Below, one piece after another: positions 24,743 through 41,922 of a DNA stretch of 64,000 nt. The notes beneath the pieces are model-generated. The model was not told the DNA's origin. It ran no database searches and saw nothing but the letters and a program-made list of their open reading frames with translations. Numbering within the stretch: position 1 is the stretch's first letter; each line of letters begins with the position of its first letter. Position numbers and translations under genes: made by a program. Location of the stretch: positions 1 to 64,000 of the IMG/VR virus record IMGVR_UViG_3300037264_007501. One strand, given 5' to 3'. Source of the DNA: a virus.

Positions 24743-24994
24743 ATGATGAAACTATTCACTTTAGCCGGGTCCCGTCATGAGAGCATCGTCAAGACTGCTC
24801 TGGTTGGTGCGCTGGCCGCTGGAGCGGGCAAGTTCGGTCTCAAGTCCGTTAAGGCCATGGGTAGGAACCTGGGCACCACCCTCGGGGTAGGCCTGGGCGC
24901 GGCCGATGTCATTGGCGGCGTCCGCCGCGGTATCCCTCTGACGCCCAAGGGCGTCGCTCCAATAATTCACAGCGTTAATGTGGGGACGGTATGA
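24743..24994 (+). CDS. Small Gly/Ala-rich virion-module protein
   Basis: 83 aa, 1 nt after the previous stop. Rich in Gly, Ala and Leu (VKTALVGALAAGAGKFGLK, GTTLGVGLGAADVIGG), with one glycine-zipper-like hydrophobic helix. It carries VKTA at residues 16-19. It overlaps the next start (ATGA). Possibly membrane-interacting. Confidence 0.6.
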   Translation: MMKLFTLAGSRHESIVKTALVGALAAGAGKFGLKSVKAMGRNLGTTLGVGLGAADVIGGVRRGIPLTPKGVAPIIHSVNVGTV

Positions 24995-26112
24995 AATACG
25001 CCTGGCTCGATAAGCTCGCCGAACAGGGACTCATTAGGCCGGCGGTTCTGGACAGCATCTACGCGGATGTGAACCAAACCGTCAAAGAAGGGGCAGTGGG
25101 CAGTCAGGCACGCGAACTCTTTGAGCGCGCTCTCAACATGGGGGTGATGGTCGGCACCGGAGCAGTCGCCAGCATGGTCGGGCGGCACCTGGGCGAGAAG
25201 AAGCACCTGCAACAGGGCATGGCCAAGATCGTTGCCTCAAGAAGCGCGATCGCGAGCGACCCCGAGTTCCAGGGGTCTGAGGATAAGGCGCAGGCCCGAT
25301 TCGACGAGATCGCTCTCTACGCCCCACACGTTGCCATGAACACGCCACTGGCCAAGCGCGTGGTCAAATCAAAGCTCAACGAGGGGCTGAGCGACAGCGA
25401 CGTACAGGCGCTGGCGTTGCTTCAGGCTCAATATTTTCCGAACGCTTTGCAGACCGACAAGTTTCAGCAGAAGGCCGCCTCTATCAGTCAGGAAAAGATG
25501 GGCGAAATGCTGGCCGATATCTACCTACTCAAGACTGCCGCCACCGACTTTTCAAAGATGACAAAGGTTCGTGGGTCAATGCCGTTCTTGGGCCGCCTTG
25601 GTCGCTATGCCCAGCATGTGGGCATGTACGCTTCTATCCCGCTGGTGGTGGGCGCTGCGGCCGGCGCTGCAAACGTCGCCCTGAGAAAACATGACCAAAA
25701 GTCGCTTGAGAAGAACCTCGAGGCTGCCTTTAGCAAGGCCATGTCCTTGAGCGACAAGGACAAGGAGCCGCTCCACGCCAACAAGGAAAAGGCGCGCCAG
25801 GCTTTCAGCGCCCTCGCCCATTTCGCCCCGCACGTCGCTCTCGAGCCGCAGGCCGCGCGCGCATTCATGACCAAGATCGTGGCCTACGACCAGGGGATGA
25901 ACATCAGCGACATCAAAGACCTGGCCGAGATTCAAAACAACATCAGCAAGAATCAAAAGGACGGGCCGTTTAGGTCGGGGTTCTTGGCTGCGGGCGCCGG
26001 CCTCGGCACCTCTAAGATAGTGCAGAGATCAATGGAAGAGGCTGGGTTTGATTTTGGCGTAGAGGGCAAGGAAGAGTTCGAAGACCCCGGTGGCAAGGTG
26101 CACTACCGCTAA
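24991..26112 (+). CDS. Virion-module protein with an internal duplication
   Basis: 373 aa. Two copies of one helical unit: RFDEIALYAPHVAMNTPLAK (about residues 103-122) and AFSALAHFAPHVALEPQAAR (about 268-287), each preceded by a charged helix with KDKA/KEKAR and followed by a D-V/I-QAL or DIKDLAEIQ helix. Between them are LLKTAATDF (K-T-A motif) and a hydrophobic stretch (YASIPLVVGAAAGAANVAL). A structural or membrane-contact role is likely; no family recognised. It ends in a 1-nt overlap with the protease gene. Confidence 0.65.
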   Translation: MKYAWLDKLAEQGLIRPAVLDSIYADVNQTVKEGAVGSQARELFERALNMGVMVGTGAVASMVGRHLGEKKHLQQGMAKIVASRSAIASDPEFQGSEDKAQARFDEIALYAPHVAMNTPLAKRVVKSKLNEGLSDSDVQALALLQAQYFPNALQTDKFQQKAASISQEKMGEMLADIYLLKTAATDFSKMTKVRGSMPFLGRLGRYAQHVGMYASIPLVVGAAAGAANVALRKHDQKSLEKNLEAAFSKAMSLSDKDKEPLHANKEKARQAFSALAHFAPHVALEPQAARAFMTKIVAYDQGMNISDIKDLAEIQNNISKNQKDGPFRSGFLAAGAGLGTSKIVQRSMEEAGFDFGVEGKEEFEDPGGKVHYR

Positions 26113-28070
26113 TGGACAAGCTACTTCTATTTCAAGGCAAGTCAGAGCGTGGGATATTCACCTACGTCATTGACCATGAGCACGCGCATCTGGTGAAGAC
26201 TGCCGCTGAGTACCACCCGGAGATATCCAACTACATCAACTCGGCCAGACGGATACCGGGGAAGACCCAGATTCTTTTGACGGCGTTGGGCGCTGGCGAG
26301 ATCTGGGGCGATAACCAAAATGGCGATTTTTTCCCAGAGGCGGCTCTTGCGCATGATGGGGCTGACTACGGACATCAGACTTTCAAGCATCACGCCAAGA
26401 TATACAAACACCACATTAACAAGGATCCGCTGGCTAGCTACGGAGATGTAGCTTTGTCAGTTTACAACACCAAGTACCGCCGCGTGGAGCTTATCGTCGT
26501 ATTGGACAATGAAAAGGCACCAGATATCGCCCAACGCATAGACTCCGGCGATTACCCAGACTGGAGCATGGGTACTCGAGTGCCGTTCGATCTGTGTTCC
26601 AACTGCGGCAACAAGGCGCCCAACCGGATTCAGTACTGCGAATGCCTCAAGTACTACATGGGGCGTATCCATCCAGAAACAGGGAAAAAAGTTTACGCCA
26701 TCAATACGATGCCCAAGTTTTTCGACATCAGCCTGGTCCTGATCGGTGCTGATCGCATTGCCAAGACTTTGAAGAAGGTGGCGTCTGCCGGCGGGCAAGT
26801 TGTCGGCTCAGCTCTTCTCGCTGAGAAGATGGCCGACGCCAACAAAGAGGCCGAGATCGAAAAAGAAGTGCCGGCGGAGACTCCTCCCGGGTCGCAGGAC
26901 CTGGTCGACTCCATTCCGGAAGTGAAGGCGCAGGAGCCGGTGTTGCCGCAGCCGCTCCTCGACGGGTTAGGCCAGCATCCTTTGTCGAAGGTATTCTCGA
27001 CTATGGCAATGCTGGGCATCTTGCCCAAGCCGCAGGAGTTTCAGCGCATCGTGTTGATCTCGATCGGCAAGCGAGACATGGCCAATGACCTGGACTCCCG
27101 CAATACCTGCTTTGACCCGATGATGACGGCGGCGCCGGCCGCCGCCCATGAGAAGCTGCTGCGCATTAGCGGCGACGATTTCTCTCCTCAGATCATGGGT
27201 ATGCTGTCTCCGCATGTCCCCGACCGCAGCTACGCCATACCACACTTGGTCCGTCGGGTTCTGCTGCTGTCCAAAACGGCTGCTCCGGAGACGGTGCCCA
27301 CCTTCGTCAAGTGGGCAGGAGACGGCGAGCGGAAACCTTTCGGCATTATCCCAATTATGGCCCTGCTGGCTGGGATGTATGCAGTGCTGGGCAAACGCGC
27401 ACCCGGTGAGGCCGTGGGCAAGATAGACGGCTTGATCGCTAAGCACCCCGGGCTGGCCATGGCATTGGCTGCCTCGGTACCAGCTATCTTCAATCAAGTT
27501 GCGGGCACGAACGTTAGAGGGCAGTATGACGCGTACGGCACTCCAGAAAACCCTGACATGAACGATCTCGGTCGTCGTATTGAGGAACGTCGTCAGCAGC
27601 CGTTTTTGAAAGTGAGCAGCATCATCGGACCCTCAGCCAAAAGATTGTTTCTTGGAGTACCTGCTGCCTATATGGCCTCCGGTCTTCTTCAGAAGCACAG
27701 AAACGCGAACCCATACGATCAAGAGGGCCGCGTGCACAGATTTTTTCGCCAGTATCCTGACCTTGTAGGCGGAGCTGTTGCACTGGATGCCTTTCTCGCC
27801 TTGAAGGGCGGGGGCACACATGGGATTTCTAAAAGAGTGGGTCAGGCTGCCAAGGTTCTCCTTGGAAAGACGGCCGCAATCTTAGAAAAGAACGCTGTAT
27901 CCGCCGACCTGATATCTAGCGGGTTGATCTGGCCCTTGGCTTACGGGCCGGCCAATCTTTCTAGCAGGATCGCAGGAGGCGTCGCCGACCATTTGATTTT
28001 GATGGGATCTAGAAAGATTTTGTCAAAGAAAAATGAGCGGAATACAATAACAAATACCGGGAGGATTTAA
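26112..28070 (+). CDS. Prohead maturation protease-like protein with long C-terminal extension
   Basis: 652 aa. Residues about 40-215 follow the pattern of T4-group/jumbo phage prohead proteases: WGDNQNGDFFPEAAL, HQTFKHHAKIYKHHINKDP, a SYGDVALSVYN-RRVELIVVLD strand pair, DWSMGTRVP and a Cys cluster CSNCGNKA...YCECLK. The His and Ser in these stretches are the likely catalytic residues. The remaining 430 residues hold K-T-A motifs (HLVKTAAEY, LLSKTAAPE, LLGKTAAIL) and hydrophobic helices; self-cleavage there is conceivable. It processes capsid proteins during head assembly. Confidence 0.72.
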   Translation: MDKLLLFQGKSERGIFTYVIDHEHAHLVKTAAEYHPEISNYINSARRIPGKTQILLTALGAGEIWGDNQNGDFFPEAALAHDGADYGHQTFKHHAKIYKHHINKDPLASYGDVALSVYNTKYRRVELIVVLDNEKAPDIAQRIDSGDYPDWSMGTRVPFDLCSNCGNKAPNRIQYCECLKYYMGRIHPETGKKVYAINTMPKFFDISLVLIGADRIAKTLKKVASAGGQVVGSALLAEKMADANKEAEIEKEVPAETPPGSQDLVDSIPEVKAQEPVLPQPLLDGLGQHPLSKVFSTMAMLGILPKPQEFQRIVLISIGKRDMANDLDSRNTCFDPMMTAAPAAAHEKLLRISGDDFSPQIMGMLSPHVPDRSYAIPHLVRRVLLLSKTAAPETVPTFVKWAGDGERKPFGIIPIMALLAGMYAVLGKRAPGEAVGKIDGLIAKHPGLAMALAASVPAIFNQVAGTNVRGQYDAYGTPENPDMNDLGRRIEERRQQPFLKVSSIIGPSAKRLFLGVPAAYMASGLLQKHRNANPYDQEGRVHRFFRQYPDLVGGAVALDAFLALKGGGTHGISKRVGQAAKVLLGKTAAILEKNAVSADLISSGLIWPLAYGPANLSSRIAGGVADHLILMGSRKILSKKNERNTITNTGRI

Positions 28071-28072
28071 AA

Positions 28073-28690
28073 ATGCCAACGCTTCAGGATATACTGGAGA
28101 ACGATCTTGGTCTTGGTTCCGACCAGCAAACCACGGAAAAAACGGCTTCTGAGAAGGACAATGCCGCCGAGACTGACGACATTGAGAAATTGGCGATGGA
28201 AATCGGGCTGGTCGAAGAACCAGATGAGACCTCGTCACAGGAAGAGACGACACTAAAAAAGGAGGCAGGAATGTCACTCGAAAACTTGTACGGAGATCTG
28301 TTTCCTGGGGACGCGGACATCGTCGGCGGCCAGCAGGGACAGGAAAAGGTGGCCGAGGAAGAGAAAACCGCGGCTGTCGAAGAGGCCATGGGGGAAGTGG
28401 CTTATGACTACTTCCAGCAGTGTGTTGATGGGCACATCACCAAGATGGCCCAGGCTGTTGCCGAGACGCTTGAGAAGGCTGGGGAGTCCCCGGCCCCTGC
28501 TCAAGCGCTCGCCAACAACGAGCACTCTGAAGACCAGGCCATCGACACGGATCCCAAGGTCGAAGATTCTGTGAAGGACACCTCGCCCGAAGGCGGCGTC
28601 GGTGACTACGAGCAGAAAAAGGGACCCATGGGCGAACTCAAACATGCCGCGGTCCGAAAGCACCTGCTTTTGGCGCAGCTCGAGAAATAA
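28073..28690 (+). CDS. Acidic scaffold-like protein
   Basis: 205 aa with GGGAGGATTTAAAA before ATG. Highly acidic and Glu/Gln-rich with predicted helices and no Cys apart from one, as in head scaffold or core proteins next to a prohead protease. Two K-T-A sites are present (TEKTASEKD at about 21-29, EEKTAAVEEAM at about 95-105). The scaffold role is inference from composition and location. Confidence 0.55.
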   Translation: MPTLQDILENDLGLGSDQQTTEKTASEKDNAAETDDIEKLAMEIGLVEEPDETSSQEETTLKKEAGMSLENLYGDLFPGDADIVGGQQGQEKVAEEEKTAAVEEAMGEVAYDYFQQCVDGHITKMAQAVAETLEKAGESPAPAQALANNEHSEDQAIDTDPKVEDSVKDTSPEGGVGDYEQKKGPMGELKHAAVRKHLLLAQLEK

Positions 28691-28700
28691 GGGGGCGAAG

Positions 28701-29330
28701 ATGAAATTTGAAGCACTCAGTAAAGAAGACCAGGCGCTCTTGAACACCAAGTTCCCCGAGGAACTTGAAAAGGAAGCGTCTGCGGAAGTCGGCCGGGCCA
28801 ACGAGCTCTACGCTGTCGGCTTCGAGAAAATGGCGTCGGGCGCAGCCGACGAACTCGACAAGTCGGCCGAGGAAGAGGAAGAGGAAGAGAAGAAAGAGAA
28901 GCCGGAACTCGACGAAGACCACAAGAAGGAAGCGGCCGCTCGCGGCGCTTTCATCGCTCGTGGCTATGTCGACGGCCTGAAGAAGCTCGGACAAGAGCGC
29001 CATCAGGACGAGCTTCACTACTTCTATCCCGCTCTCGAAGAGAAGCTTGGGATGGACGCGGGCAAGCTCAAAGGCGCGTTCTCCAGCTTCGCGGCCAAAG
29101 CGAAGGACCTCGCCAGCAAAGCGAAGGCCGGCGCCGGCAAAGCGGTCGAGAAGGGCAAAGCCATGCACCAGGCCTCCATGGCGCATGTCAAGAGCGTTGG
29201 CGACAAGTCGCTCTCGAAGATGGAGCGGACCAAGCACGGCCTGAAGGCTCTCCACCATCCCGGTGTTTACGGCGCCGGTGCGGCGGCAGCGGCCGCTGGC
29301 GCTCACCGCGCTCTGAAGAAAAAGGACTAA
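28701..29330 (+). CDS. Charged virion/core protein
   Basis: 209 aa from ATG 28701 (GGGGGCGAAG upstream). Contains YAVGFEKMASGA near residue 40 (the FEKxA motif), a run of nine Glu/Lys residues at about 57-70, and a Lys/Ala-rich histone-H1-like C-terminal half (KAKDLASKAKAGAGKAVEKG) ending in a Gly/Ala helix. It could be an internal, DNA-contacting head protein or second scaffold. It ends at a strong terminator. Confidence 0.6.
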   Translation: MKFEALSKEDQALLNTKFPEELEKEASAEVGRANELYAVGFEKMASGAADELDKSAEEEEEEEKKEKPELDEDHKKEAAARGAFIARGYVDGLKKLGQERHQDELHYFYPALEEKLGMDAGKLKGAFSSFAAKAKDLASKAKAGAGKAVEKGKAMHQASMAHVKSVGDKSLSKMERTKHGLKALHHPGVYGAGAAAAAAGAHRALKKKD

Positions 29331-29337
29331 CGGTTCA

Positions 29338-29370
29338 ATGGGGCAGGGGTAACTCCCCTGCCCCATTTTT
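29338..29370 (+). terminator. Intrinsic terminator inside the head gene cluster
   Basis: ATGGGGCAGGGG (29338-29349), loop TAACT, CCCCTGCCCCAT (29355-29366), then TTTTT. The perfect 12-bp stem with a U-run is a classic terminator. It separates the protease/scaffold genes from those leading to the capsid gene. Confidence 0.88.
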
Positions 29371-29383
29371 CAAGGGGCTGCTT

Positions 29384-29860
29384 ATGAGTTCACTCGACCA
29401 GCTTTTTAGAGACGCGGACGCTCTGATCAAGAAGCGAGCGGCCGCTGTCGTAACCTTGGCTCCTCAGCCAGATGACGAAGTAACGAAGCTCGCCGACCTG
29501 CTGGCCAAGGACGGAGAGGTCAAGCAGGCCGCACCAGTCGCCATCGAAGAGACGCTTTTTGAGAAGGTGGCCCATGCTATCGCCATCATTGAAACGATGG
29601 AGAAGCTCGGCGAGATCAATAAATTGGTCGAGTTCGAGAAAAAGGCCGCGGAAGCTGGTCACACCGCGGAGCAGATCGACGCCTTCATCGAGAAGAAGGG
29701 TATGAAGCTGTCTCCGAAATACCTGAAGATTTTGGGTGGGGCGGCGGCGCTGGGGGCGTCCGGCGCAGTCGGCGCGCACGCCGGCAAGAAGAAGGGCTAC
29801 CAGTCAGCCGTAGAGGACGTGAACAAGGCCCTCGAGTCCTACGCGAGCGCCAGTGAATGA
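29384..29860 (+). CDS. Virion-module protein with FEK motifs
   Basis: 158 aa, starting 13 nt after the terminator (AAGGGGCTGCTT site). It carries LFEKVAHAI (about 58-66) and VEFEKKAAEAG (about 84-94), so two copies of the FEKxA-type motif. The C-terminus has a Gly/Ala-rich hydrophobic helix (ILGGAAALGASGAVGAHAG). Head protein by location; function unknown. Confidence 0.6.
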   Translation: MSSLDQLFRDADALIKKRAAAVVTLAPQPDDEVTKLADLLAKDGEVKQAAPVAIEETLFEKVAHAIAIIETMEKLGEINKLVEFEKKAAEAGHTAEQIDAFIEKKGMKLSPKYLKILGGAAALGASGAVGAHAGKKKGYQSAVEDVNKALESYASASE

Positions 29861-30354
29861 TCAAGGAAGCCTTCTTGCAGGGGTTTTACAAGAGCGCCTC
29901 CAAGCTCTCCCGTGTCCACTCTGGTCTCAGCTCCATGGAGAAGAGGGTGCGGGCTGGGTACCGACGCAGTGGCGGATCCGCGGGGGGACTCGGAGGTTCC
30001 CTGTTTGAGATTCCAGTGTCAGCAGTGGCCAGGAAGCTGTTTGGAAAAGGCAAAGTGAACCGCGCCCTTCGTAATGTGAACCAAGCCGGGTTGAAGGCGG
30101 ATACATTGGTGGGGAGAGCAGGTCATGCTGTGACCAAGCATCTGCCCAAAGGTTTTGGTAAGGATCTTTTCGTGCAGAAGGATCTGGTACCAGTCGGAAA
30201 AGGGATGCACAAGGAAGTCCGCAGGACATCGGTACTGGCGCCGGCAAACAAGGCTATGGGCATTGCGGCACCCATCGTAGTTGGGGTAGTATTAGATAAG
30301 CAAATCCGAAAAGTTAAACACAGTGGACAACAACCTGAGAAAATTAGCCGCTGA
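29857..30354 (+). CDS. Virion-module protein with N-terminal FLQGFYKSA motif
   Basis: 165 aa, ATGA overlap with the previous gene. The N-terminus MIKEAFLQGFYKSASK is a version of the recurrent FWxGFEKxA motif. The body is basic and Gly-rich, with a hydrophobic stretch near the end (GIAAPIVVGVVLD). It overlaps the next gene by 32 nt. Confidence 0.6.
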   Translation: MIKEAFLQGFYKSASKLSRVHSGLSSMEKRVRAGYRRSGGSAGGLGGSLFEIPVSAVARKLFGKGKVNRALRNVNQAGLKADTLVGRAGHAVTKHLPKGFGKDLFVQKDLVPVGKGMHKEVRRTSVLAPANKAMGIAAPIVVGVVLDKQIRKVKHSGQQPEKISR

Positions 30355-30634
30355 GAAAATGCTCCAACTCCATAGTGAGAACAAGGAGCATGTAAAGCGT
30401 GCCCATGCACTGCGCTTGATTTTCAAGCAGGCAGAGCTTGGCTTTGGGGACGTCCCGCGCTCATACAGGGAGCTTCAAGAAAAAGTCGCCTCTCTACTTA
30501 CACAAGACCTAGTCATAGTCGAGAAAGCCCTGGAACTGACCGGTGGCAATATGAAGCTTGGCGAACTTGATCGAACTGATCTCTCCGCCAGCCCAGACGC
30601 CACAGAGCAATTTCAGGCAGCGATCATGGAGTGA
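30323..30634 (+). CDS. Small helical virion-module protein
   Basis: 103 aa from GTG 30323. Helical with KLAAEKMLQLHSENKEHVKRA and YRELQEKVASLLTQDLVIVEKALEL. No FEKxA motif beyond EKVA. It ends before the decoration-like gene. The start overlaps the upstream gene by 32 nt. No family recognised. Confidence 0.6.
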   Translation: MDNNLRKLAAEKMLQLHSENKEHVKRAHALRLIFKQAELGFGDVPRSYRELQEKVASLLTQDLVIVEKALELTGGNMKLGELDRTDLSASPDATEQFQAAIME

Positions 30635-30673
30635 GGCTGTGCCTCACTTCAAAACTGTAACCCGGAGGATCAG

Positions 30674-31159: not shown

Positions 31160-31168
31160 GGAGGAAAT

Positions 31169-32080
31169 ATGAACGAACTAGACGCAGTCACGTTCAATAA
31201 CCTCTTTATTGAGAGGTTGGACACGACCGAAGGAATCCAAAAAACCGCCGCCGCCGGAGCCGCGTTCGTGCGTTCCAAAATCCGTGAAATCGGATTTGGT
31301 CGCCGAGTGTTGCCACCGGAATCGGTAACCCGTGCCGATACCACTCGGTCCACTGATCACGACACGTTGATCAAGATCGTGGATATCGAGCACGACTCCA
31401 AGGCAATGGCTGTGAATTTCGCCGGCGAGTCCGACGAACGTTACATCCAAGGAAAACGCTACGCACTTCCCTTCTTTAAGATCGAATCTGAGAAGTTTGT
31501 GAAGAGCGAAGGCGAACTCCTGGCCTACGATTACCCCATCACGAAGGTAATCGAGGAGAACAGCATCAAGGACATCCAACGTACCGAGGACGAAAAGTTC
31601 ATCGAGTACGCTGAGTCTGCGATCACCATCACGGGGAAGCGCATTGTTTCTCCGGCGACCGCTGCGGACAGAAAAGAGCTGAACTCTCTTTTCAAGATGA
31701 TCGATTTCGATCAGCTGACCGCCGCGACCGTGCTCATGAACACCGTCGACTTCGACGACTACATGGTCCAGCCGGCTACTGAAGTCGGTTCGCCATTGGC
31801 CAGCGAAATCACCGTCAACGGTTACAAGTACCCGACGATCATGAAGCGCAAGCTCGTGGTCACCAACAAGCACGATATCGTGAAACCCGGATTCGTCTGG
31901 GCCTTCACGGATCCTGCTTACTTGGGTAACTTCTTCATCCTGAACGACGTAAAGTTCTGGATCAAGAAGGAAGCGGACCTTGTGATCTGGAAGACGTGGG
32001 AGTACGTCGCCGAAGGCTTCGGAAACATCAAGTCGATCGCCAAGATCGAACTTGACGTCCCGAGCCCGATCCCGGTCTGA
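31169..32080 (+). CDS. Major capsid protein (HK97-type)
   Basis: 303 aa with a strong AAGGAGGAAAT site, as expected for a highly expressed gene. The N-terminus has GIQKTAAAGAAFVRSKIRE (K-T-A motif at about 24-27), a plausible maturation cleavage point. The body has long strands and helices typical of HK97-type capsids (SEGELLAYDYPITKVIEENS, ESAITITGKRIVSP) and ends with WEYVAEGFGNIKSIAKIELD. A stem-loop follows the stop. The identification rests on fold-like features, synteny (protease, decoration, capsid) and the ribosome site. Confidence 0.78.
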   Translation: MNELDAVTFNNLFIERLDTTEGIQKTAAAGAAFVRSKIREIGFGRRVLPPESVTRADTTRSTDHDTLIKIVDIEHDSKAMAVNFAGESDERYIQGKRYALPFFKIESEKFVKSEGELLAYDYPITKVIEENSIKDIQRTEDEKFIEYAESAITITGKRIVSPATAADRKELNSLFKMIDFDQLTAATVLMNTVDFDDYMVQPATEVGSPLASEITVNGYKYPTIMKRKLVVTNKHDIVKPGFVWAFTDPAYLGNFFILNDVKFWIKKEADLVIWKTWEYVAEGFGNIKSIAKIELDVPSPIPV

Positions 32081-32092
32081 TAAGCGGATGAC

Positions 32093-32125: not shown

Positions 32126-32147
32126 CGTCCCAAAAAGGAGAACACAC

Positions 32148-32651: not shown

Positions 32652-33069
32652 GCTTTTCCTACTAGACACGCCCGCTTTCAATCGACTGATCCGCACCGAG
32701 GAGTCTGACGACGACCTGATTTCGTTTGCCCTCGATATGGCGATCGATGACTGGAATACGACCGCGCCAGTCATAGGGAACACCCACATCGGAAACTTCC
32801 CCAGCCTCTATCTTTTGATGCACGCGGCAGCTATCCAGGTGCTGAAGAGCCAGGGACTGCGCCAGGCCCGCAACGAGCTCAATTACAACACGGGCGGGTC
32901 GAGCTTCATCAGGTCAAACAAGAGCAACTACTACATGTCGTGGCTCACTAATTTCGCGCAGGAATTTGAGGGGAAAAAAAGGAACCTCAAAGTTTTTCAG
33001 AACATTACTGGTGGCTGGGGCGGTGGAGGCGTTGCGTCAGAATATGATCGTATCGGATATTCGTGGTAA
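32590..33069 (+). CDS. Neck/connector-like protein
   Basis: 159 aa. Mainly helical (KRRWEKAKKYLRLFLLDTP, LISFALDMAIDDWNTT, LYLLMHAAAIQVLKSQGLR), then a flexible end (NITGGWGGGGVASEYD). Helical connectors of this size follow the capsid gene in many myoviruses. The identification is positional only. Its stop overlaps the HNH gene by 7 nt. Confidence 0.5.
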   Translation: MATPQTPESKRRWEKAKKYLRLFLLDTPAFNRLIRTEESDDDLISFALDMAIDDWNTTAPVIGNTHIGNFPSLYLLMHAAAIQVLKSQGLRQARNELNYNTGGSSFIRSNKSNYYMSWLTNFAQEFEGKKRNLKVFQNITGGWGGGGVASEYDRIGYSW

Positions 33070-33680
33070 GCCATTTGTCAAGAACTATTTGTCCAAGATG
33101 CGAAAAAAGTAGACCACTGACCAAGACCTACTATCACCCTCGATCCGGACCAAAACTCCCGTGCTGTGTTGTGTGTGAGAAGGTTTTGCTAGAAAAGAGG
33201 GCAGTGATGAAGCGCTGTGCTGCCCGCAATCCGGAAAAAATAAAAGCACGCGCAAAGGAATACGGAAAAAGTGAAAAGTGGCGAACCTGGCACAACGAGT
33301 ACAGGCGCGGTAAGAAAAAAGAGCGCGCTCTAGAAGCGAGACAATACCGAGCAAATAACCGAGAGAAAGTGCTGGCTTACAAAAGAGATTGGTACGCCAA
33401 AAACAAAGAAAGGCTGCAGCAATATAGAGCTGACTATGTCAAAAAGAACCCGTGGTTCAACAGGGCAGCGTCTGCAAGAAATCGTGCTTTAAGGATACAA
33501 CGCACCCCAGAGTGGGCCAACATGGAAGCCATAAAGAAATTTTACAAAGAGTGCCCGGTCGATAAGGTGGTTGACCACCAGATACCGCTCAGAGGAAAAA
33601 TCGTCAGCGGACTACACGTACCGAACAATTTTCAATATCTCACGCCTAAAGACAACAACGTGAAAGGCAACCGCTGGTGA
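33063..33680 (+). CDS. Free-standing HNH homing endonuclease
   Basis: 205 aa from GTG 33063. The N-terminus has CPRC and CVVC zinc pairs. The middle is a long, highly charged helix typical of this group. The C-terminal catalytic part VDHQIPLRGKIVSGLHVPNN and YLTPKDNNVKGNRW matches the phage HNH family with DHxxPLxGKxVSGLHV. It lies between two neck genes with short overlaps (7 nt, then 4 nt), so it invaded without breaking them. Its base composition is more A-rich than its neighbours. Confidence 0.85.
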   Translation: MVSHLSRTICPRCEKSRPLTKTYYHPRSGPKLPCCVVCEKVLLEKRAVMKRCAARNPEKIKARAKEYGKSEKWRTWHNEYRRGKKKERALEARQYRANNREKVLAYKRDWYAKNKERLQQYRADYVKKNPWFNRAASARNRALRIQRTPEWANMEAIKKFYKECPVDKVVDHQIPLRGKIVSGLHVPNNFQYLTPKDNNVKGNRW

Positions 33681-34543
33681 GCGCCTCCGCTCTAAAAAAT
33701 ATCAAAGTCAGTAAGCTGCGCACAGCCGTCTTGTCTATTGAGCATATTTCCCGCGTCCTGGTGAAGTGGGACCTGGCGCCAACCGCGCAAGACCTCAGTA
33801 ACCTTACGTTCGTCGTAGACCGCGGTGAGAGCCCGAGCGCCCTGGTCCCCATCAGCCACGCTATCCCGGCCACAGCACTGCGAGAGTTTGTCGACTACAC
33901 GGCCAAGCTCAAGAACGTTGAGAAGGTCTACTACTACCGCGTCCGTGCCGTCGAAACTATCGCCGACGTACCCACGCAGACGTTTCTGTCAGAGACGCTC
34001 CCCCTCGAGGGGCGACCCGATCTGGTCGCACTCTACATTGTCGAGGAGCACCTCTTCGCCCACAGGTACGTGTACGGCTCGCCCGCGCTCATCTTCAAGC
34101 ACATGATGGAGGGTACGGCTTGCAAGGACTGCTTTGACCCGGTTCTCAAGCGCGTGACCAAGAGCAACTGTACGACGTGCTATGGCACTGGTTTTCTTGG
34201 CGGGTATTATCCCTTCATGGAGTCCTGGATGGACTTCAACCCGGATCCTAAGCAGGTGCAAATAGCGGAGTGGGGAGCGCGCCAGCCCAGTCAAACTGAT
34301 ATACAATTCACCAACTACCCACTACTGGCCGTAGGGGACCTCATCGTTGAGCTGAAGCAGAACCGTTATTGGAAGGTGGCCAACGTTCGTAACACGGAGA
34401 AGAACCGCACCACCATTCTTCAGGTATGCCGGCTCGACGAGGTCAACAGGTCTGACATAGAATACAAAATCGAAGTGCCTGACGAGGCTCGTCTGCGCCT
34501 GCTCAAAGAGCTGGAAGACAGAGAAGCCGTACCGGAGTTCTGA
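33677..34543 (+). CDS. Neck/head-completion-like protein with zinc knuckle
   Basis: 288 aa from GTG 33677. Contains CKDCFDP and CTTCYGTGF (about residues 149-173), a zinc knuckle. The N-terminal 110 residues look like a fibronectin-like beta sandwich (HISRVLVKWDLAP, VEKVYYYRVRAVETI). The C-terminal part is beta-rich (PLLAVGDLIVELKQNRYWKVANV). The position between connector and tail genes suggests head completion. No named family. Confidence 0.55.
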   Translation: MSASALKNIKVSKLRTAVLSIEHISRVLVKWDLAPTAQDLSNLTFVVDRGESPSALVPISHAIPATALREFVDYTAKLKNVEKVYYYRVRAVETIADVPTQTFLSETLPLEGRPDLVALYIVEEHLFAHRYVYGSPALIFKHMMEGTACKDCFDPVLKRVTKSNCTTCYGTGFLGGYYPFMESWMDFNPDPKQVQIAEWGARQPSQTDIQFTNYPLLAVGDLIVELKQNRYWKVANVRNTEKNRTTILQVCRLDEVNRSDIEYKIEVPDEARLRLLKELEDREAVPEF

Positions 34544-34908
34544 TGCACAAACGCGCCGAGCCATCTTTGACTGCTGAACTTGAACCGGTCCAAGAGACCG
34601 CCCAGGGAGACACCTACGTTGGCAAAGTCAGCGACGGGTACTTCTGGGGCGGCTTCCGTAAGAAGGCGGCGTACCGGGTAGCTCTCGGTGAGAAGGCGAT
34701 GTCGCACACCACTGGTGGGAGCCTCAAGGGGCTGAGCCCTAAGACGGGTGTGGCGACGGCCGCCGCCTTCAAACCCAATCCTTTGCCTACACCTAAGCCG
34801 ATGGCTGCGGATAAAACGCTGGCCCCTGCGCCCACACTGGGAGGGCTTGGCAAAGCTCCGCGCCAGCCACGGCAGGGCGGAATGGGCGTTGCAAAAATGG
34901 TAGTATGA
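34543..34908 (+). CDS. Virion-module protein with central FWGGFRKKAA motif
   Basis: 121 aa, overlapping the previous stop by 1 nt. The motif GYFWGGFRKKAAYR is at about residues 32-45, with a disordered acidic segment before it and a Pro/Gly-rich disordered tail after it. The overlap with the next gene is ATGA. Confidence 0.55.
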   Translation: MHKRAEPSLTAELEPVQETAQGDTYVGKVSDGYFWGGFRKKAAYRVALGEKAMSHTTGGSLKGLSPKTGVATAAAFKPNPLPTPKPMAADKTLAPAPTLGGLGKAPRQPRQGGMGVAKMVV

Positions 34909-35683: not shown

Positions 35684-35692
35684 GGAGAGACT

Positions 35693-38125
35693 ATGGCTTA
35701 TCGCAAACCAGCAGTTACGGTTATCCAAGAATTTCTAGGACTGGTGCCGGCACTGGCGCCGTTCTCCCTTCCATCGGTGGCGGTTGGAGCTACCTACCAG
35801 CTGGTCGACAATGACCTCCTCGGTACTTACGTCGGCAACCTTCAAGCCTACCCCTACGCCAGTAAGATGGCCGGGGCCGCGGTCGACCTCGAGGAGGAAG
35901 ATCCGGAAGAGCTCTACCCCGCCACGAAGAAGCCCATTGAAGTTACTTTGAAAAACGCGGTCGTAGAAGTGCTGACCTCGCAGACGACCGGACGTGGCGT
36001 GGGCACGTCCTTTTCGGATGTGTCCGTTGGGCAGTTCGCTGACGTCCTGGCTGGTGACCTGGTCGTCATCATCCCCTCTTTGGGAGTGGAGATCATTGCC
36101 CCGCAGACGGACGGTGTGAGTGCCGCGGCTACGCCCACGGTTTTGACCGCCGGCACCCCTGGCCAATTCGCCGACGTTCTGGCCGGCGATATTGTCACGG
36201 TCACGGCCGGCACCAACGCCGTCCCCGGAGTGTTCACCGTATTGGTGAACACGGCCGGCAACTCGCTGAAGCTCGATAGCAGCGTCAACACCGGCGGCGG
36301 CGCGAGCACGGACACGGCCTACTCCATCGCGGGCGACCGGGGTGTGGTTACCGAGGGCTCGTACCGTGTGCGGAGCAAGACCGACCCCAACACTTTGGTC
36401 CTTGAAGGCGCTCTGGCCCAGGCCGAATACCCGCTGACCTACTCAGTCAACCGGGAAGTGGCCTTGATTGTCGTCGACCGGGATCCGCTGACTGGGTTCA
36501 CCCCGATCGCAGCCAGCATCTCCTTGCCGGCGGCCCTGAGCGTTGCCGCGGGCCCCATTCTTTCCGCTGATGTGTACGCGAATTACCGCGCTCTCCGGAA
36601 CGACAAGGCCGCGACCGTACTGGAATACGCGAAGCTCGCGGATCTCCAGGCCGACTTTGGCGTGACTCAGATCACCCCTCAGAACCCGCTGGCCTACGCG
36701 CTGTCGCTCATGCTTCAGAACACGGTCACGCCGGTCAACGGACTCGGCCTGGACGGCCTGGCCGTCACTGACGAGAGCCTGTCCTTTCTGAACGCGGCCG
36801 ACGTACTGGGCATGACCGAAATGTACGCCATCGTTCTGCTGACGCAGAATCCGGCCATCCACCAAATCTACAAGACTCATGTGGAAGGTCAGTCTGCTCT
36901 TCAGAAAGAGCGCGTGGTCATCGTCAACAGGACGATCAAGCTGGAAGAGACGCTGGTGCCGACTTCGACCACGTCCGTCGCTACCAGTGGCGCCAGGATC
37001 ATCGTCAACACGCAGCTGGACGGCGACGCGCTCGTTGCCTTCCCCACGATCTTGAACGACGCGACCCCGGATGCCTTCTTGAATGTGCAGCCGGGCGACT
37101 CCGTCGTTATCGTCGGTGGAACCAATTCGGTACCGGGCACCTACACGGTGGTCAGCAAGCAGAGCTCGAACCAGATCACGCTCTCGGGCAACGTTGTCGT
37201 TGGTGGCAACTCGACGGACCTTCAGTACTACATCGTCCGCAGGGACGGTCTCAGCTTCAACGGGACCACCTTCTACGACCGTGAGGCTACCTTCATCAGC
37301 AGCGGCGTCTCGGCTGGCATGATCGTTCGCATCGCCTCTGGCACCTTCGCCGGTGACCAGACCATTGCGTCGGTTACGAGCGAGACCGAGCTGGAAGTGG
37401 CCCAGGTCCCCGGAGTGGTGACGCTGGAAACCGCGGTCGAGTACTCGGTCGTCAGGAACCTGAGCAAGACCGAGCAAGCCGCCTTCATCAGCGGGTACTC
37501 GGCGGCACTCGCCTCTCGTCGGGTGGTCAACGTTTGGCCAGACACTCTGAGCGCGCCCGTTGGGCAGACTCTGGAGGATGTGCCCGGGTTCTACGGCGGT
37601 TGCGCGATCGGGGCCATCACTACTGGCCTGCCCACTCAGCAGGGGTTCACGAACCTTTCCATCAGCGGGTTTTTGGGGCTGCAGCACAGCACCAAGTACT
37701 TCACGGACGCGCAGCTCGATACCATCGCGGACGGCGGTACCATGATCTTGGCCCAGGAGGGGGATCAGTCGCCGCTCTTCATCCGGCATCAGCTGACGAC
37801 CGACCGCTCTGCGATCAAGTTCCAAGAGTACAGCGTTACCAAGAACGTGGATTTCATTTCCAAGTTCTTGCGACGGACGTACGCACCGTTCATCGGGGTC
37901 TACAACATCACGGACGCTGCCAAGGATGAGCTTCGCGGGACCGCGAAGGCTGCCCTCAGCTTCCTGAAGGACTCCACCAGGCTGCCTAAGATTGGCGGCG
38001 TCATCAGGGGCGGTCAGTTGGCGTCGTTGATTGAGGACCCGGCCAACATCGACACCATCTTGATGACCTTCCGGTTGGATATCCCGATCCCGTTGAACAA
38101 CCTCATTATCACGGTCCAAGTTTAA
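35693..38125 (+). CDS. Contractile tail sheath protein
   Basis: 810 aa with AAGGAGAGACT before ATG. The C-terminal region (DFISKFLRRTYAPFIGVYNI ... DIPIPLNNLIITVQV) and the central GFYGGCAIGAITTGLPTQQG follow known sheath proteins, and the C-terminal strand is the one that links subunits. An N-terminal insert contains three copies of a beta domain: QFADVLAGDLVVI, QFADVLAGDIVTVTAGTNAV and NVQPGDSVVIVGGTNSV. These probably decorate the outer surface. It is larger than the usual 400-700 aa because of these repeats. It shows the phage is a myovirus. Confidence 0.88.
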   Translation: MAYRKPAVTVIQEFLGLVPALAPFSLPSVAVGATYQLVDNDLLGTYVGNLQAYPYASKMAGAAVDLEEEDPEELYPATKKPIEVTLKNAVVEVLTSQTTGRGVGTSFSDVSVGQFADVLAGDLVVIIPSLGVEIIAPQTDGVSAAATPTVLTAGTPGQFADVLAGDIVTVTAGTNAVPGVFTVLVNTAGNSLKLDSSVNTGGGASTDTAYSIAGDRGVVTEGSYRVRSKTDPNTLVLEGALAQAEYPLTYSVNREVALIVVDRDPLTGFTPIAASISLPAALSVAAGPILSADVYANYRALRNDKAATVLEYAKLADLQADFGVTQITPQNPLAYALSLMLQNTVTPVNGLGLDGLAVTDESLSFLNAADVLGMTEMYAIVLLTQNPAIHQIYKTHVEGQSALQKERVVIVNRTIKLEETLVPTSTTSVATSGARIIVNTQLDGDALVAFPTILNDATPDAFLNVQPGDSVVIVGGTNSVPGTYTVVSKQSSNQITLSGNVVVGGNSTDLQYYIVRRDGLSFNGTTFYDREATFISSGVSAGMIVRIASGTFAGDQTIASVTSETELEVAQVPGVVTLETAVEYSVVRNLSKTEQAAFISGYSAALASRRVVNVWPDTLSAPVGQTLEDVPGFYGGCAIGAITTGLPTQQGFTNLSISGFLGLQHSTKYFTDAQLDTIADGGTMILAQEGDQSPLFIRHQLTTDRSAIKFQEYSVTKNVDFISKFLRRTYAPFIGVYNITDAAKDELRGTAKAALSFLKDSTRLPKIGGVIRGGQLASLIEDPANIDTILMTFRLDIPIPLNNLIITVQV

Positions 38126-38135
38126 GGAGAGCTAA

Positions 38136-38840
38136 ATGCCAGCAACCAATTCTTTTTCAAACTGGGACTTTTACAACTACCACATCCAGAGCGATCTGGT
38201 CGGTGGGCAGTTTGTAAGTGCGGAGTCGACCCTGGTAGCGGCCGGGCCGCCCCAGATCAGTCAGACCTCCGGAGGCGGGACTACCGGGGGTATCTACCCC
38301 ATCGGTCTTCTCGAGTCCGTGGGACTCCAGCAGTCCAAGCAGCTGCAGAGGATCTTTGAGATCGGGTCGAACCGGTCTTACTTCATCCCCGGCCGCGTGA
38401 TTGGTTCGCTGTCGATCGGGCGCACCTTCTACTTCGGGCCCAGTCTTCTGCGGGTGCTCTACGCTTACTACCGCAGCACGAGAAACAACATCGTCTTCGG
38501 GACCGCTCCTCAAGGGTCGACCATCGTTGTCGACGGCATCGAGGTTCCGGATCCGGCGGCAGTGTTGCTCGATGTGGTTGAGGAGTCGGCGCTCCACGCC
38601 CTTCGCCGGACACCTGGCGAAGATTACTTCTTCGTCGAATTGGCGTCGGACCTCTTCAACCAGCCCACTGGCATGGCTATCTACTTCAAGGACCAGAACG
38701 CCACCAGCGTTGGTGCCTTGTACTTGGAGTTCTGCTACGTTCAGGGGCATCAGATGTCCATCTCGAGCGGTTCCGTTTTGGTCATGGAAGGTGTTTCCAT
38801 GCAGTACGACCGAATCGTTCCTATCAAGGTAATGGTGTAG
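38136..38840 (+). CDS. Tail tube protein
   Basis: 234 aa with AAGGAGAGCTAA before ATG, right after the sheath. Beta-rich fold with Gly-rich loop (SQTSGGGTTGGIYPIGLLE), ISRTFYFGP-like strands and the ending SGSVLVMEGVSMQYDRIVPI seen in tube proteins. Sheath-tube order is conserved in myoviruses. Confidence 0.75.
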   Translation: MPATNSFSNWDFYNYHIQSDLVGGQFVSAESTLVAAGPPQISQTSGGGTTGGIYPIGLLESVGLQQSKQLQRIFEIGSNRSYFIPGRVIGSLSIGRTFYFGPSLLRVLYAYYRSTRNNIVFGTAPQGSTIVVDGIEVPDPAAVLLDVVEESALHALRRTPGEDYFFVELASDLFNQPTGMAIYFKDQNATSVGALYLEFCYVQGHQMSISSGSVLVMEGVSMQYDRIVPIKVMV

Positions 38841-38842
38841 TT

Positions 38843-39157
38843 GTGGAAAAATTCTGGGCCGGGTTTGAGAAAACCGCAGTATCTGTTGGCCTGGCTACCA
38901 GGGCAATGGCGTCCCGTGGTTTGCGTACTAACAAGAGCGCGCCCGGTGAGTACGCCAGAATGCTTCGTAGCGGCGGTGTGGATGTTAAAAAATTCATACG
39001 ATCTAACAAGGCCATGAAAGAAGAGGCTAATAGACTCGGAGTTTTGGTCGGCACTGACCGGATGTTAGAGCAGCCAGTCCGCAGCCTTCTCAAAGAACCC
39101 CATAGTTCCTGGAAATCCGTAAAAGATATTCGAAGCTTCACGAAGGGCAGCAAATGA
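38843..39157 (+). CDS. Small virion-module protein, FWAGFEKTA motif
   Basis: 104 aa from GTG 38843. It starts EKFWAGFEKTAVSVGLATRA, the best form of the repeated N-terminal motif, and the rest is basic and helical. First of a run of six short genes that share this start and overlap by 1-4 nt. The function is unknown. Confidence 0.6.
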   Translation: MEKFWAGFEKTAVSVGLATRAMASRGLRTNKSAPGEYARMLRSGGVDVKKFIRSNKAMKEEANRLGVLVGTDRMLEQPVRSLLKEPHSSWKSVKDIRSFTKGSK

Positions 39158-39414
39158 AAACTTTCTGGGCAGGATTTGAGAAGCAGGCCAGCATAGCCAG
39201 CGTCGTAGGTGGTGCAGGTACCGCCGTCAGGCGCGCCGGCGTCGGTATGATGGGCGGAGGCAAAGCGAAGCAGCTTGTAGGCCGCGCCATGATGGGCGCT
39301 GGCAAAGTCGTTGCTCGTAACCCGGTTGCAACCGCGGTGGGTGCTGCCGGAGCAGCGGGCCTCGCCGGCGGATACGTGGCCGGCAAGAGTCAGCCACAGC
39401 CCAGGATGTACTAA
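39154..39414 (+). CDS. Small virion-module protein, FWAGFEKQA motif, Gly/Ala-rich
   Basis: 86 aa, ATGA overlap. Starts MKTFWAGFEKQASIASVVGG. The rest is Gly/Ala/Arg-rich with one membrane-like stretch (VATAVGAAGAAGLAGGYVA). It may insert in a membrane or fill the tail lumen; no evidence beyond composition. Confidence 0.6.
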   Translation: MKTFWAGFEKQASIASVVGGAGTAVRRAGVGMMGGGKAKQLVGRAMMGAGKVVARNPVATAVGAAGAAGLAGGYVAGKSQPQPRMY

Positions 39415-39761
39415 TGAGCAATTTTTGGATTGGTTTTGAGAAGCGTGCCGGGGCCGGAGTTCTTGAACCGTTCTCGGCTGTCGGTGGCGCCATTGGCGGC
39501 CGGACGGACAAGGCCAAAGAGAGCAATACCGTGAAGGCCAAGGCGCACGCCTCTAACGTTGTGGACGCCAAAAAAACGCGTAAACAGAACATCATGCAGT
39601 ACCTGATCAACCCAGAAACCCCTGGCCCCTTTTCTGAAATAGGGCACAGACTCAGCCGCCGGCACCGGGCTTCGATGGTGGAGCACCCGACTCGCACTGC
39701 ACTGATTCCTTTGTACGGCGAGATCCGCGGCGGGAAGGCCGGAGAGAAAGACGTAAAGTGA
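39414..39761 (+). CDS. Small virion-module protein, FWIGFEKRA motif
   Basis: 115 aa, TAATG overlap with the previous gene. Starts MSNFWIGFEKRAGAGVLEPF; the middle is basic with KKTRKQNIMQYL and the end is RHRASMVEHPTRTALIPLYG. No family recognised. Coupled to its neighbours by 1-4 nt overlaps. Confidence 0.6.
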   Translation: MSNFWIGFEKRAGAGVLEPFSAVGGAIGGRTDKAKESNTVKAKAHASNVVDAKKTRKQNIMQYLINPETPGPFSEIGHRLSRRHRASMVEHPTRTALIPLYGEIRGGKAGEKDVK

Positions 39762-40114
39762 CACCCTTTTGGACAGCCTTCGAGAAGCAAGCTGGGCTCG
39801 CCGGTGCAGCAGGTGCAGCCTGGGGAAGCGCCCGTACACTCGGTGGTGCTCCTCGAGCGGTTGGAAAGTTTTTCAAGAAGACTACCCGGGCGGCCAAGTC
39901 TGAGTTCCACCGCGGCCTGCGATCGACGGACCCCGCGGCCCGGGCCAAAGACATCGCCAGTGTCGCGGCCAAGCGCCAAGCCCAAGAAGGGCTGGTGGCC
40001 AAGGCAAAGCGTTTACCGTCTCCTGTGAAGGCCCTGGGCCTAATCGGCGCTGGCGTCGCCGGCCATGCGGCCTACTCCGGAAGGGACACCTCGCAGCCGC
40101 AGGGATACTACTGA
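39758..40114 (+). CDS. Small virion-module protein, FWTAFEKQA motif
   Basis: 118 aa from GTG 39758. Starts MTPFWTAFEKQAGLAGAAGA. The middle is strongly basic (FFKKTTRAAKSEFHRGLR) and the end has a Gly/Ala helix (KALGLIGAGVAGHAAYSG). Same layout as the 39154 product: motif, basic middle, hydrophobic end. Confidence 0.6.
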   Translation: MTPFWTAFEKQAGLAGAAGAAWGSARTLGGAPRAVGKFFKKTTRAAKSEFHRGLRSTDPAARAKDIASVAAKRQAQEGLVAKAKRLPSPVKALGLIGAGVAGHAAYSGRDTSQPQGYY

Positions 40115-40722
40115 TGCACACGGCTATCCGCCGCGGAGTTGCCAAATCCATGGATGACATCAGAGACCTTGGCAACCGCGCCTCACAAGAAATTCTGAAG
40201 AGCCCAAAGCTGCATGCAGCTATCAAGCCGCGCCGGCGAGAGGAGAAGACCGCGTTTTGGGTGGGTTTTGAGAAACAGGCCATCAGTACGAAGCTGATGC
40301 GCAAAGCTATCCGTCGTGCCGAAGACGCCAGAGAGCTCGTCTCCGCCATCAGCCGCGCCGAGGGCTCGGCGGGCGCAGGAGTACTCGCCGGGAAGCACGG
40401 TGGGCATATTGAGAGGTTCAAGCAAGCTCTGGGCGCGCACATGAGAAAAGGCGAGCTCCCCCTGCAACGTCGCAAACACTTGCGTAAGAAGTTCCGAGAC
40501 AAGGCCTACAGCGGTGCCTTCGTACGTCGAAATCACGCCAATTTATTTCAACGGCTCCCGGTACACCCGCAAGCGTGGCTGGACACTGTGCAAGCTGCGC
40601 GAAAAAACCCGGAAATGGCTGCTGCTCTGAGTAAAGCCATCCCCGAAAATGGACCGCTGGATAAAAAGACTTTGTTTAAGTTGACCGACTACAACATGGC
40701 CCAAAGGAAGAGCTGGAAATGA
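40114..40722 (+). CDS. Virion-module protein, internal FWVGFEKQA motif
   Basis: 202 aa. Here the motif (EEKTAFWVGFEKQA) is at residues 44-57, after a basic leader, which could be removed if the motif is a cleavage site. The rest is helical and basic (MRKAIRRAEDARELVSAISR, RKHLRKKFRDKAYS). Overlaps on both sides. Confidence 0.6.
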   Translation: MHTAIRRGVAKSMDDIRDLGNRASQEILKSPKLHAAIKPRRREEKTAFWVGFEKQAISTKLMRKAIRRAEDARELVSAISRAEGSAGAGVLAGKHGGHIERFKQALGAHMRKGELPLQRRKHLRKKFRDKAYSGAFVRRNHANLFQRLPVHPQAWLDTVQAARKNPEMAAALSKAIPENGPLDKKTLFKLTDYNMAQRKSWK

Positions 40723-41234
40723 GCTTTTGGAAAGGATTCGAGAAGCGCGCCGTTAGCGAGAAGTACTTTTCACGCATTGCCAGTGGTGCAAAAGGTGACC
40801 GGTCTAAAAGGCTGAACAGGGCGGGCGGGCTTTGGCAGGAGCGCATGATGACCGGCACTCGGGGTTCTAGCAGTTACCGAGAAGGCTTTCAGAGCGAGCT
40901 GCACAAAGCCCACGGCGACTGGCGGATGGCCGCTCTCAAGCGAATTCATTCAGAGCCGAAGGACTGGCAAATAGCCGGGTTGGCCGCGGCGGCCGGTGGA
41001 GTAGCCGGCGCGTTAGCGGCGCGGCTCAGAGGTAGTAAGGAAAAGCGTGCTTACCAGGAAAGCTCCGACGAACTGCTAAACACGTTTTACAAGCCGGAGA
41101 AGAAGGCGCCCTCCTTCTTGGACGGTATCGGCACGAGCTCCCAGCTCGATGCCAGAGATATCGGCGAGGGACAGCCGAGGATGTTCAGCCGCAACGAAGC
41201 CATGTCGGACACGTACGCTGGCTTAAGCAGGTGA
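40719..41234 (+). CDS. Virion-module protein, FWKGFEKRA motif
   Basis: 171 aa, ATGA overlap. Starts MSFWKGFEKRAVSEKYF. It has an Ala-rich hydrophobic segment (IAGLAAAAGGVAGALAARL) near residue 90 and an acidic C-terminus. Last of the small motif proteins before the Nudix gene. No family recognised. Confidence 0.6.
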   Translation: MSFWKGFEKRAVSEKYFSRIASGAKGDRSKRLNRAGGLWQERMMTGTRGSSSYREGFQSELHKAHGDWRMAALKRIHSEPKDWQIAGLAAAAGGVAGALAARLRGSKEKRAYQESSDELLNTFYKPEKKAPSFLDGIGTSSQLDARDIGEGQPRMFSRNEAMSDTYAGLSR

Positions 41235-41235
41235 T

Positions 41236-41922
41236 ATGCGACTTTTTCTCAGAAGCTTTTACAAGACCGCTGGCCTCGCCGAGGTCTCCACCGTTGGTGT
41301 CATCGACGGCGACAAGTTTCTCATGGGTAAGCGCCGGGATAACGGTCGGTATACCAACCCGGGCGGTCACCTGGATCCCGGGGAGGACCCCAAGGCCGGC
41401 GCCAAGCGCGAGCTCGTGGAAGAAGCTGGCATTGACCTGCCGCTGTCTGCCTTCGAGCATCTGACCTCCGAAAAGGTCACCACCCCCACCGGCAAGCAGT
41501 TGATGATCCACGCTTTCAAATGCAACGTGTCAGGGCAGAAGACCACCATGAAGGGAGACCCCGACCAGGAGGTTGAGCGATGGTCCTGGATGAGCACCAA
41601 AGGCGGTCTACCCTCTGAGGTGATGGAGAACCTTCACAGCCCCAAGAACGTGCTCCTGAAGGCACTGGGGCTCATGGAGAAGACCGCTATGGCGTTCTGG
41701 GCAGGGTTCGATAAGCAGGCCCGCAAGCTGACCTCCAAGGCACGCGCTGACCTCCAGGAAGGCAGCTTCGTCTTCCCCCAGGAACGCCGGTATCCCATCC
41801 ATGATGAGAACCATGCCAGGGCTGCTCTCCAGCGGGTGTCGCAGTTTGGCAGCCCCAGTGAGAAGGCCGCGGTCCGCTCGGCCGTGCACTCCCGGTACCC
41901 GCAGATCCAACAAGAAAAGTAA
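41236..41922 (+). CDS. Nudix hydrolase fused to a DUF6582-like domain
   Basis: 228 aa. A perfect Nudix box spans G44-I66 (GGHLDPGE...REL-VEEAGI), so it should hydrolyse nucleoside diphosphate-linked compounds. It starts LFLRSFYKTA and has a second motif MAFWAGFDKQA at about 152-162, so both halves carry the virion-protein motif. The C-terminal half (TSKARADLQEGSFVFPQERR, YPIHDENHARAALQRV) matches a small phage domain I recall as DUF6582. Possible virion-carried enzyme acting on host nucleotides early after entry; that is inference. Confidence 0.82.
   Translation: MRLFLRSFYKTAGLAEVSTVGVIDGDKFLMGKRRDNGRYTNPGGHLDPGEDPKAGAKRELVEEAGIDLPLSAFEHLTSEKVTTPTGKQLMIHAFKCNVSGQKTTMKGDPDQEVERWSWMSTKGGLPSEVMENLHSPKNVLLKALGLMEKTAMAFWAGFDKQARKLTSKARADLQEGSFVFPQERRYPIHDENHARAALQRVSQFGSPSEKAAVRSAVHSRYPQIQQEK

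Follow-up and report, generated by a model that had tools for sequence, protein, structure and literature searches.

In phage T4, the prohead protease cuts the core proteins to fragments and strips the N-terminal propeptides of the capsid protein and the internal proteins (PMC5694885). The proteases of T4, phiKZ, 201phi2-1 and SPN3US all cut after Glu (PMC5694885). Here, we analyzed a window of 64,000 bases, the first part of the 71,398-base record IMGVR_UViG_3300037264_007501, in which proteins encoded around a head gene cluster share the nine-residue stretch FxxGFxKxA. We consider it likely that this stretch is a removable N-terminal capsid-targeting peptide, whose K-x-A end would be cut by the prohead protease encoded at 26112, freeing the cargo in the head for ejection.

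Searching IMG/VR with the capsid protein of the window yielded 42 loci at 61-90% identity. As several of these loci sit on contigs of 150-182 kb, the window probably represents part of the genome of a large phage. Its nearest annotated relatives were Salmonella phage Arash (180.8 kb) and the Vibrio phages D69, D148 and D181. The capsid proteins of Arash and D69 are 32-33% identical to that of the window, and D148 and D181 are also among the Vibrio phages with a homologous capsid protein and protease. Eleven related contigs were obtained whole or nearly so, besides the complete Arash record; genome-wide comparisons covered 12 genomes, Arash included, with genes called by a simple home-made caller. 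Four further genes of the window were recorded in passing: at the left edge (19-2526, + strand), a gene for the terminase large subunit (GpA-type ATPase), which contains an intein and a LAGLIDADG domain; an IS605 OrfB/TnpB-like gene with a Cas12f1-like TNB domain (58803-59957, - strand); an ORF between the head genes (33063-33680, + strand) with CxxC pairs and a DHQIPL stretch, which looks like an HNH homing endonuclease and had no Pfam match; and a gene with an OB-fold and a weak HD-domain match, resembling YhaM-type nucleases (22005-22964, - strand).

The initial annotation had named ten copies of the nonapeptide in nine genes, and we recovered all of them, in frame. A six-frame scan of the 71.4-kb record with the pattern F..[GAS][FY].K.A returned 10 matches in 9 genes, each on the same strand as the virion genes, where shuffles give 0.10:

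29872..29898, + strand: tag FLQGFYKSA, in gene 29857-30354
34642..34668, + strand: tag FWGGFRKKA, inside gene 34543-34908 (about residue 34)
38852..38878, + strand: tag FWAGFEKTA, N-terminus of gene 38843-39157
39163..39189, + strand: tag FWAGFEKQA, N-terminus of gene 39154-39414
39423..39449, + strand: tag FWIGFEKRA, N-terminus of gene 39414-39761
39767..39793, + strand: tag FWTAFEKQA, N-terminus of gene 39758-40114
40255..40281, + strand: tag FWVGFEKQA, about residue 48, with EKTA immediately before it, in gene 40114-40722
40725..40751, + strand: tag FWKGFEKRA, N-terminus of gene 40719-41234
41245..41271, + strand: tag FLRSFYKTA, N-terminus of the Nudix protein, gene 41236-41922
41695..41721, + strand: second tag of the Nudix protein, FWAGFDKQA, with MEKTA before it, between the Nudix and DUF6582-like domains

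The usual position of the tag, which the annotation had not remarked on, is the extreme N-terminus; the exceptions in the window are the copies at 34642 and 40255 and the second copy of the Nudix protein. In gene 40114-40722 (EKTA-FWVGFEKQA), as in loci L136, L144 and L170, a K-x-A lies directly ahead of the tag, and the peptide looks as if it were cut at both sides.

The tag is present in about 30 related contigs, nearly always 1-6 residues past the start codon. Over all loci, the start codon lies at most 6 residues before the tag in 149 of the 157 distinct tagged ORFs. Most of the better-covered genomes carry 10-22 tags against 0.1-1.0 expected (15 against 0.7 in shuffles for G001, 14 against 0.4 for G002, 22 against 0.65 for G003, 15 against 0.95 for G004 and 13 against 0.2 for G009). 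Close relatives mostly have the form M-x-x-FWxGFEKxA, and more distant ones M-FxxGFxKxA. Since K and A were fixed in the first search pattern, we rescanned with FxxGF only: K at +6 and A at +8 followed in 125 of 163 N-terminal cases versus 13 of 69 internal ones, and several of the exceptions have Ser in place of Ala (K-x-S).

The same tag scan against shuffles found no strict tag in Arash or in contig G008; the latter has the variants FSRGLQKIA (MKFSRGLQKIA) and MTFSTALQKTA. The FxxGF tag was likewise absent from the 41-kb region of Vibrio phage D69 that we examined. Over all Arash genes, N-terminal K-x-A was not above chance (18 against 17.5 expected), and Arash therefore has no tag of the K-x-A form. 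A short made-up tag used as a tblastn query against phages gave no match. Scanning 257 Gb of bacterial and archaeal genomes for the tag with a start codon gave 2 matches, in ORFs that end about 20 residues further on, and we judged both to be chance. We judged the same of the viral matches L131, L145, L150, L155, L158-L160, L171 and L176, mostly short ORFs. A capsid-protein search of 11 further tag-bearing or chance records, mostly fragments, found none.

The annotation had also pointed to a shorter KTA form in the capsid protein, the protease and the scaffold-like protein. These copies are indeed present (GIQKTAA at 31241-31249 in the capsid protein, 26196-26204 in the protease, and 28139 and 28364 in the scaffold-like protein). 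Bare KTA is frequent by chance; the genuine short form is K-x-A preceded by a hydrophobic residue at -2 from K and often by E at -1. We defined a head-core set as the capsid gene plus 8.5 kb upstream, with tags masked, and ranked about 1560 spaced residue pairs. K.A was the top pair in the head-core genes of 8 of the 12 genomes, including Arash, and among the top five in 11. Pooled over the 12 genomes, which are related so that counts are not independent, K.A occurred 591 times in head-core genes against 321 expected, and at expectation in the remaining genes (1972 versus 1992). Within-protein shuffles gave p of about 0.001-0.005 for K.A in each genome, and the control pairs R.A, E.A, A.K, K.S and K.G showed no enrichment in head-core genes. 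The next-ranked pairs (L.K, EK, KT, I.K and, shortly after, K..S) are pieces of one motif, [L/I]-E-K-T-A-S, and the core consensus is [LIFM]-E-K-x-A|[S/A/G]. The form [LIFM][EDQT]K.[AS] was about 4-12 times denser in the core than elsewhere in all 12 genomes. Whole-genome K-x-A was just 1.0-1.4 times the expected level, and the signal is therefore local to the head genes.

Beyond this set, K.A likewise ranked first in the head-core region of Vibrio phage D69. It was weak in the head region of phage G (rank 4, 27 against 15.8), weak and not outstanding in Mycobacterium phage Megamind (rank 27, 27 against 16.4) and at expectation in the head region of Rhodococcus phage E3. Close to its N-terminus, the protease of Bacillus phage G (gp19, L123) reads LGLVKTAAKV, and its specificity may likewise be for K-x-A.

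The head genes of the window and their predicted sites are:

23830..24741, + strand: head-core protein in the operon position of Arash gp220, with 11 K-x-A sites against 4.2 expected
24743..24994, + strand: small core-region protein with a single K-T-A site (24791-24799)
24991..26112, + strand: core-region protein that contains K-x-A sites and occupies the operon position of Arash gp221
26112..28070, + strand: prohead (head maturation) protease (PHROG 18299, E=1.2e-6)
26196..26204, + strand: K29-T-A31, N-terminal site at which the protease is predicted to process itself (K29 invariant and A31 at least 90% conserved in 19 homologs, including Arash and Vibrio D69)
26775..26783, + strand: K222-V-A224, a second predicted autoprocessing site, where the protease domain ends on its C-terminal side (both residues invariant in 19 homologs)
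28073..28690, + strand: scaffold-like acidic protein with 7 K-x-A sites against 1.8 expected, predicted to be chopped by the protease
28692..29330, + strand: core protein in which K-x-A sites are conserved (LEKEA keeps its K and A in 24 of 24 sequences)
29384..29860, + strand: core protein whose K-x-A sites include one at the place of FEKVA in 33 of 33 sequences
30323..30634, + strand: core protein (K and A of QEKVAS conserved at 1.00 in 38 sequences)
31169..32080, + strand: major capsid protein (PHROG 2522, major head protein, E=9e-14; 33% identical to the Arash major capsid protein gp226)
31241..31249, + strand: K25-T-A27, predicted cleavage site of the capsid propeptide (neither K25 nor A27 varies in 16 homologs, the most distant at 32-33% identity)

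K-x-A was conserved or enriched in the capsid protein, the protease and the scaffold alike. In the capsid protein, the residue between K25 and A27 varies among the 16 sequences; the model of this protein (pLDDT 42) was too poor for placing K25-A27 in the fold. In the scaffold-like protein, six sites have K/A conservation of 0.72-1.00 against a mean of 0.40 (18 sequences), and in this protein and the neighboring core proteins many K-x-A sites are conserved at 0.9-1.0 against mean identities of 0.28-0.48. Sites 42 and 174 of the head-core protein at 23830 are conserved at 0.95 against a mean identity of 0.40, and Arash gp220 is among the proteins detected in the virion by mass spectrometry (PMC10585845). 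K-x-A is also conserved at the corresponding capsid and protease places in Arash and Vibrio D69. Concentrated in the proteins of head assembly, and conserved in capsid protein, protease and scaffold, K-x-A acts as the protease site would.

The enzyme predicted to cut there is the product of the 26112 gene. It is a phage-encoded protease within the head gene cluster, matching gp77 of Rhodococcus phage E3, annotated as a prohead protease (tblastn, 3e-9). Residues H100, H101, S152 and M153 are invariant in a 19-row alignment of homologs that go down to 40% identity; His100/His101 (26409-26414) and Ser152-Met-Gly (26565-26573) probably form the active site, their catalytic role being a prediction. 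A PDB fold search with an AF2 model of the protease (pLDDT 76.6) gave no significant match (HSV-1 protease at E=0.57), and profile searches against PDB sequences and NCBIfam returned noise only. In two relatives, at L002:3536-6610 (G001) and L028:3335-6535 (G006), the protease is split by a large in-frame insert right past Ser-Met-Gly. Both inserts contain a LAGLIDADG domain and that of L002 an intein splicing domain, and each is probably an intein.

The annotation had left the choice between a site cut by the prohead protease and a signal for packing proteins into the particle. The comparative sequence evidence, together with one virion-proteomics link, favors both at once. By its placement and conservation, the FxxGF- ahead of K-x-A acts like a packaging tag at the N-terminus of unrelated cargo proteins. 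We propose that scaffold, protease and tagged cargo come together as a core, in which the FxxG part docks the cargo during assembly. At [LIFM]-E-K-x-A|[S/A/G], the protease would then process its own chain along with the core proteins, the capsid propeptide and every tag, and the cut at GFxKxA would free the cargo inside the head, from which it would be ejected into the host.

A simpler account is that K-x-A is a protease site, that FxxG merely improves cutting, and that the cargo enters the head otherwise. A hydrophobic residue at -2 from K is enriched in core sites too, which would make half of the tag protease recognition. However, the F and G are specific to the N-terminal tag: at the equivalent positions of core sites there is a mild preference for Gly, and Phe is not among the commonest residues. 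The tag also stands at the extreme N-terminus of unrelated, non-core proteins, as a targeting peptide would, and we consider this account unlikely. It is less probable still that the tag is an uncleaved docking peptide for the capsid interior, the portal or the tail. Several tagged genes do lie near tail genes, and cleavage itself is deduced from sequence; yet the tag ends in the very motif that is concentrated in the capsid, protease and scaffold proteins, and small residues often come next (A in 31 and G in 27 of 157). We infer from this tendency, and from the analogous P3/P1 motifs in T4 and giant phages, that a removable tag would be cut after Ala.

The tagged proteins are, as the annotation had it, otherwise unrelated: comparing the parts after the tag by blastp placed the 157 tagged ORFs in 104 groups. 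When 68 tagged representatives were scanned against Pfam and PHROG, the majority had no domain match. Among the rest, we found Nudix, SNF2 helicase, ATP-dependent DNA ligase, thioredoxin, DnaJ, SWIM, glycine-zipper and DUF6582 domains, and one minor head/DNA-pilot match. Some tagged genes stand in tandem arrays (38843-41922), as they might if the small tagged proteins were recently duplicated paralogs with a common beginning. This explanation is very improbable, given that the 104 groups, which include enzymes of unrelated folds, have no detectable similarity past the tag. The codons of the tag, moreover, are fully mixed (for Gly and Ala all four codons occur, for Lys and Phe both), and selection therefore acts on the peptide. 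A signal at the DNA or RNA level, such as a translation start or regulatory element, would suit a tag that adjoins start codons, but the codon mixture, the varying distance to the start and the existence of internal tags leave it next to no credibility, and we rejected it along with gene duplication.

Two kinds of cargo were followed individually. The Nudix protein of the window (41236-41922) has a NUDIX domain (PF00293, E=2.3e-15) and a second domain matching DUF6582 (PF20223, E=5.6e-5, below the curated cut-off) and PHROG 16160 (E=3e-13). Its second tag is predicted to separate the two, and the double tag suggests that one ORF would give rise to two cargo proteins. Among the helicases, two fully tagged ones match Arash gp217 at 38% over the full length. 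The alignment begins at residue 19-22 of the tagged helicase and at residue 5-6 of the Arash protein, the tag being an extra N-terminus. Arash virions yielded 38 peptides and 1148 spectra of gp217, a spectral count near the 1333 of the capsid protein, within a virion proteome of 116 proteins, some of them probably contaminants (PMC10585845). The link of the tagged proteins to virions thus runs through one type, the helicase, by way of a homolog in a phage that itself lacks FxxGF. In the five helicase homologs of the fetched relatives, the tag lies just ahead of the helicase domain, in strict, variant or degenerate form (MHSFWLGFEKRA, MTVDSFWSGFEKAA, MFTSGLNKLA, the internal VLRGFYKAA and the degenerate MEHFLKKFAA), and L144, L149, L164 and L170 apparently encode further tagged helicases. 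We also observed homologs of about 2000 residues of the Arash virion RNA polymerase beta subunit at G002:7532-13558, G003:22467-28568 and G013:23645-29743; in G002, two tagged genes follow directly, the second of which is a helicase.

Proteins injected by phages are hard to recognize, being small and fast-changing, and a strict tag would allow them to be listed by sequence in a clade with almost no cultured members. On balance, although with less assurance than for the targeting peptide itself, we think it probable that a clade of large phages loads about a hundred protein groups, helicase, ligase and Nudix among them, by one nine-residue signal unrelated to that of T4 and removed by a Lys-x-Ala prohead protease. 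If so, the ejected proteome of uncultured phages could be predicted from genome sequence alone, and the gain of nine codons would turn a new gene into virion cargo. It would also add a prohead-protease specificity that does not end in Glu and possibly offer, beside the peptides of T4 and P1, another orthogonal one for loading enzymes into phage heads.

The arrangement is not new in kind, because the capsid-targeting sequence (CTS) of T4 and DarB of phage P1 show that N-terminal head-packaging peptides exist (PMC3012670, PMC9024508). The opinion of the initial annotation that no motif of this kind had been described holds in part: the short, cleaved CTS of the T4 internal proteins follows the same logic (PMC3012670, PMC5694885), while the sequence and the Lys/Ala specificity appear undescribed in the literature searched. 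We found no K-x-A prohead motif in open-access papers and, as far as these show, the tag sequence, the K-x-A specificity and the breadth of cargo are new.

Like our tag, the T4 CTS, cut by gp21, is a short N-terminal peptide common to diverse internal proteins and removed by the prohead protease, and the same enzyme cuts the scaffold/core proteins and the capsid propeptide (PMC3012670, PMC5694885); here, both kinds of cutting are predicted. The tag ends in GF[E]KxA and the core consensus is [LIFM]EKxA, so that it too ends in the putative prohead-protease site. The two differ in sequence, in the cut, which falls after Glu in T4 (PMC5694885) and is predicted here after Ala with Lys at P3, and in the cargo, which here includes enzymes such as SNF2 helicase, Nudix and DNA ligase. 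As the tag ends in K-x-A and not in Glu, it is a functional analogue of the T4 CTS and not a member of its family. SPN3US gp245 and the phiKZ-type proteases (A-X-E, S/A/G-X-E) resemble the present system in having fixed P3 and P1 residues with any residue between, in the Ser preferred after the cut (SPN3US) and in several sites within propeptides (PMC10052503, PMC5694885); they differ in having Glu at P1 and Ala/Ser at P3 rather than Ala and Lys, and mostly long propeptides as opposed to tags of about 10-15 residues. In phage P1, the N-terminal 30 residues of DarB suffice to bring a reporter into the capsid, but this was described for one protein, without a shared nonapeptide family (PMC9024508). 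Of the nearest annotated phages, Arash and Vibrio phages D69, D148 and D181 have the homologous capsid protein and protease. Arash and D69 also share K-x-A at the same places and as the top-ranked pair of their head-core genes, whereas the FxxGF tag was not found in Arash or the 41-kb D69 region.
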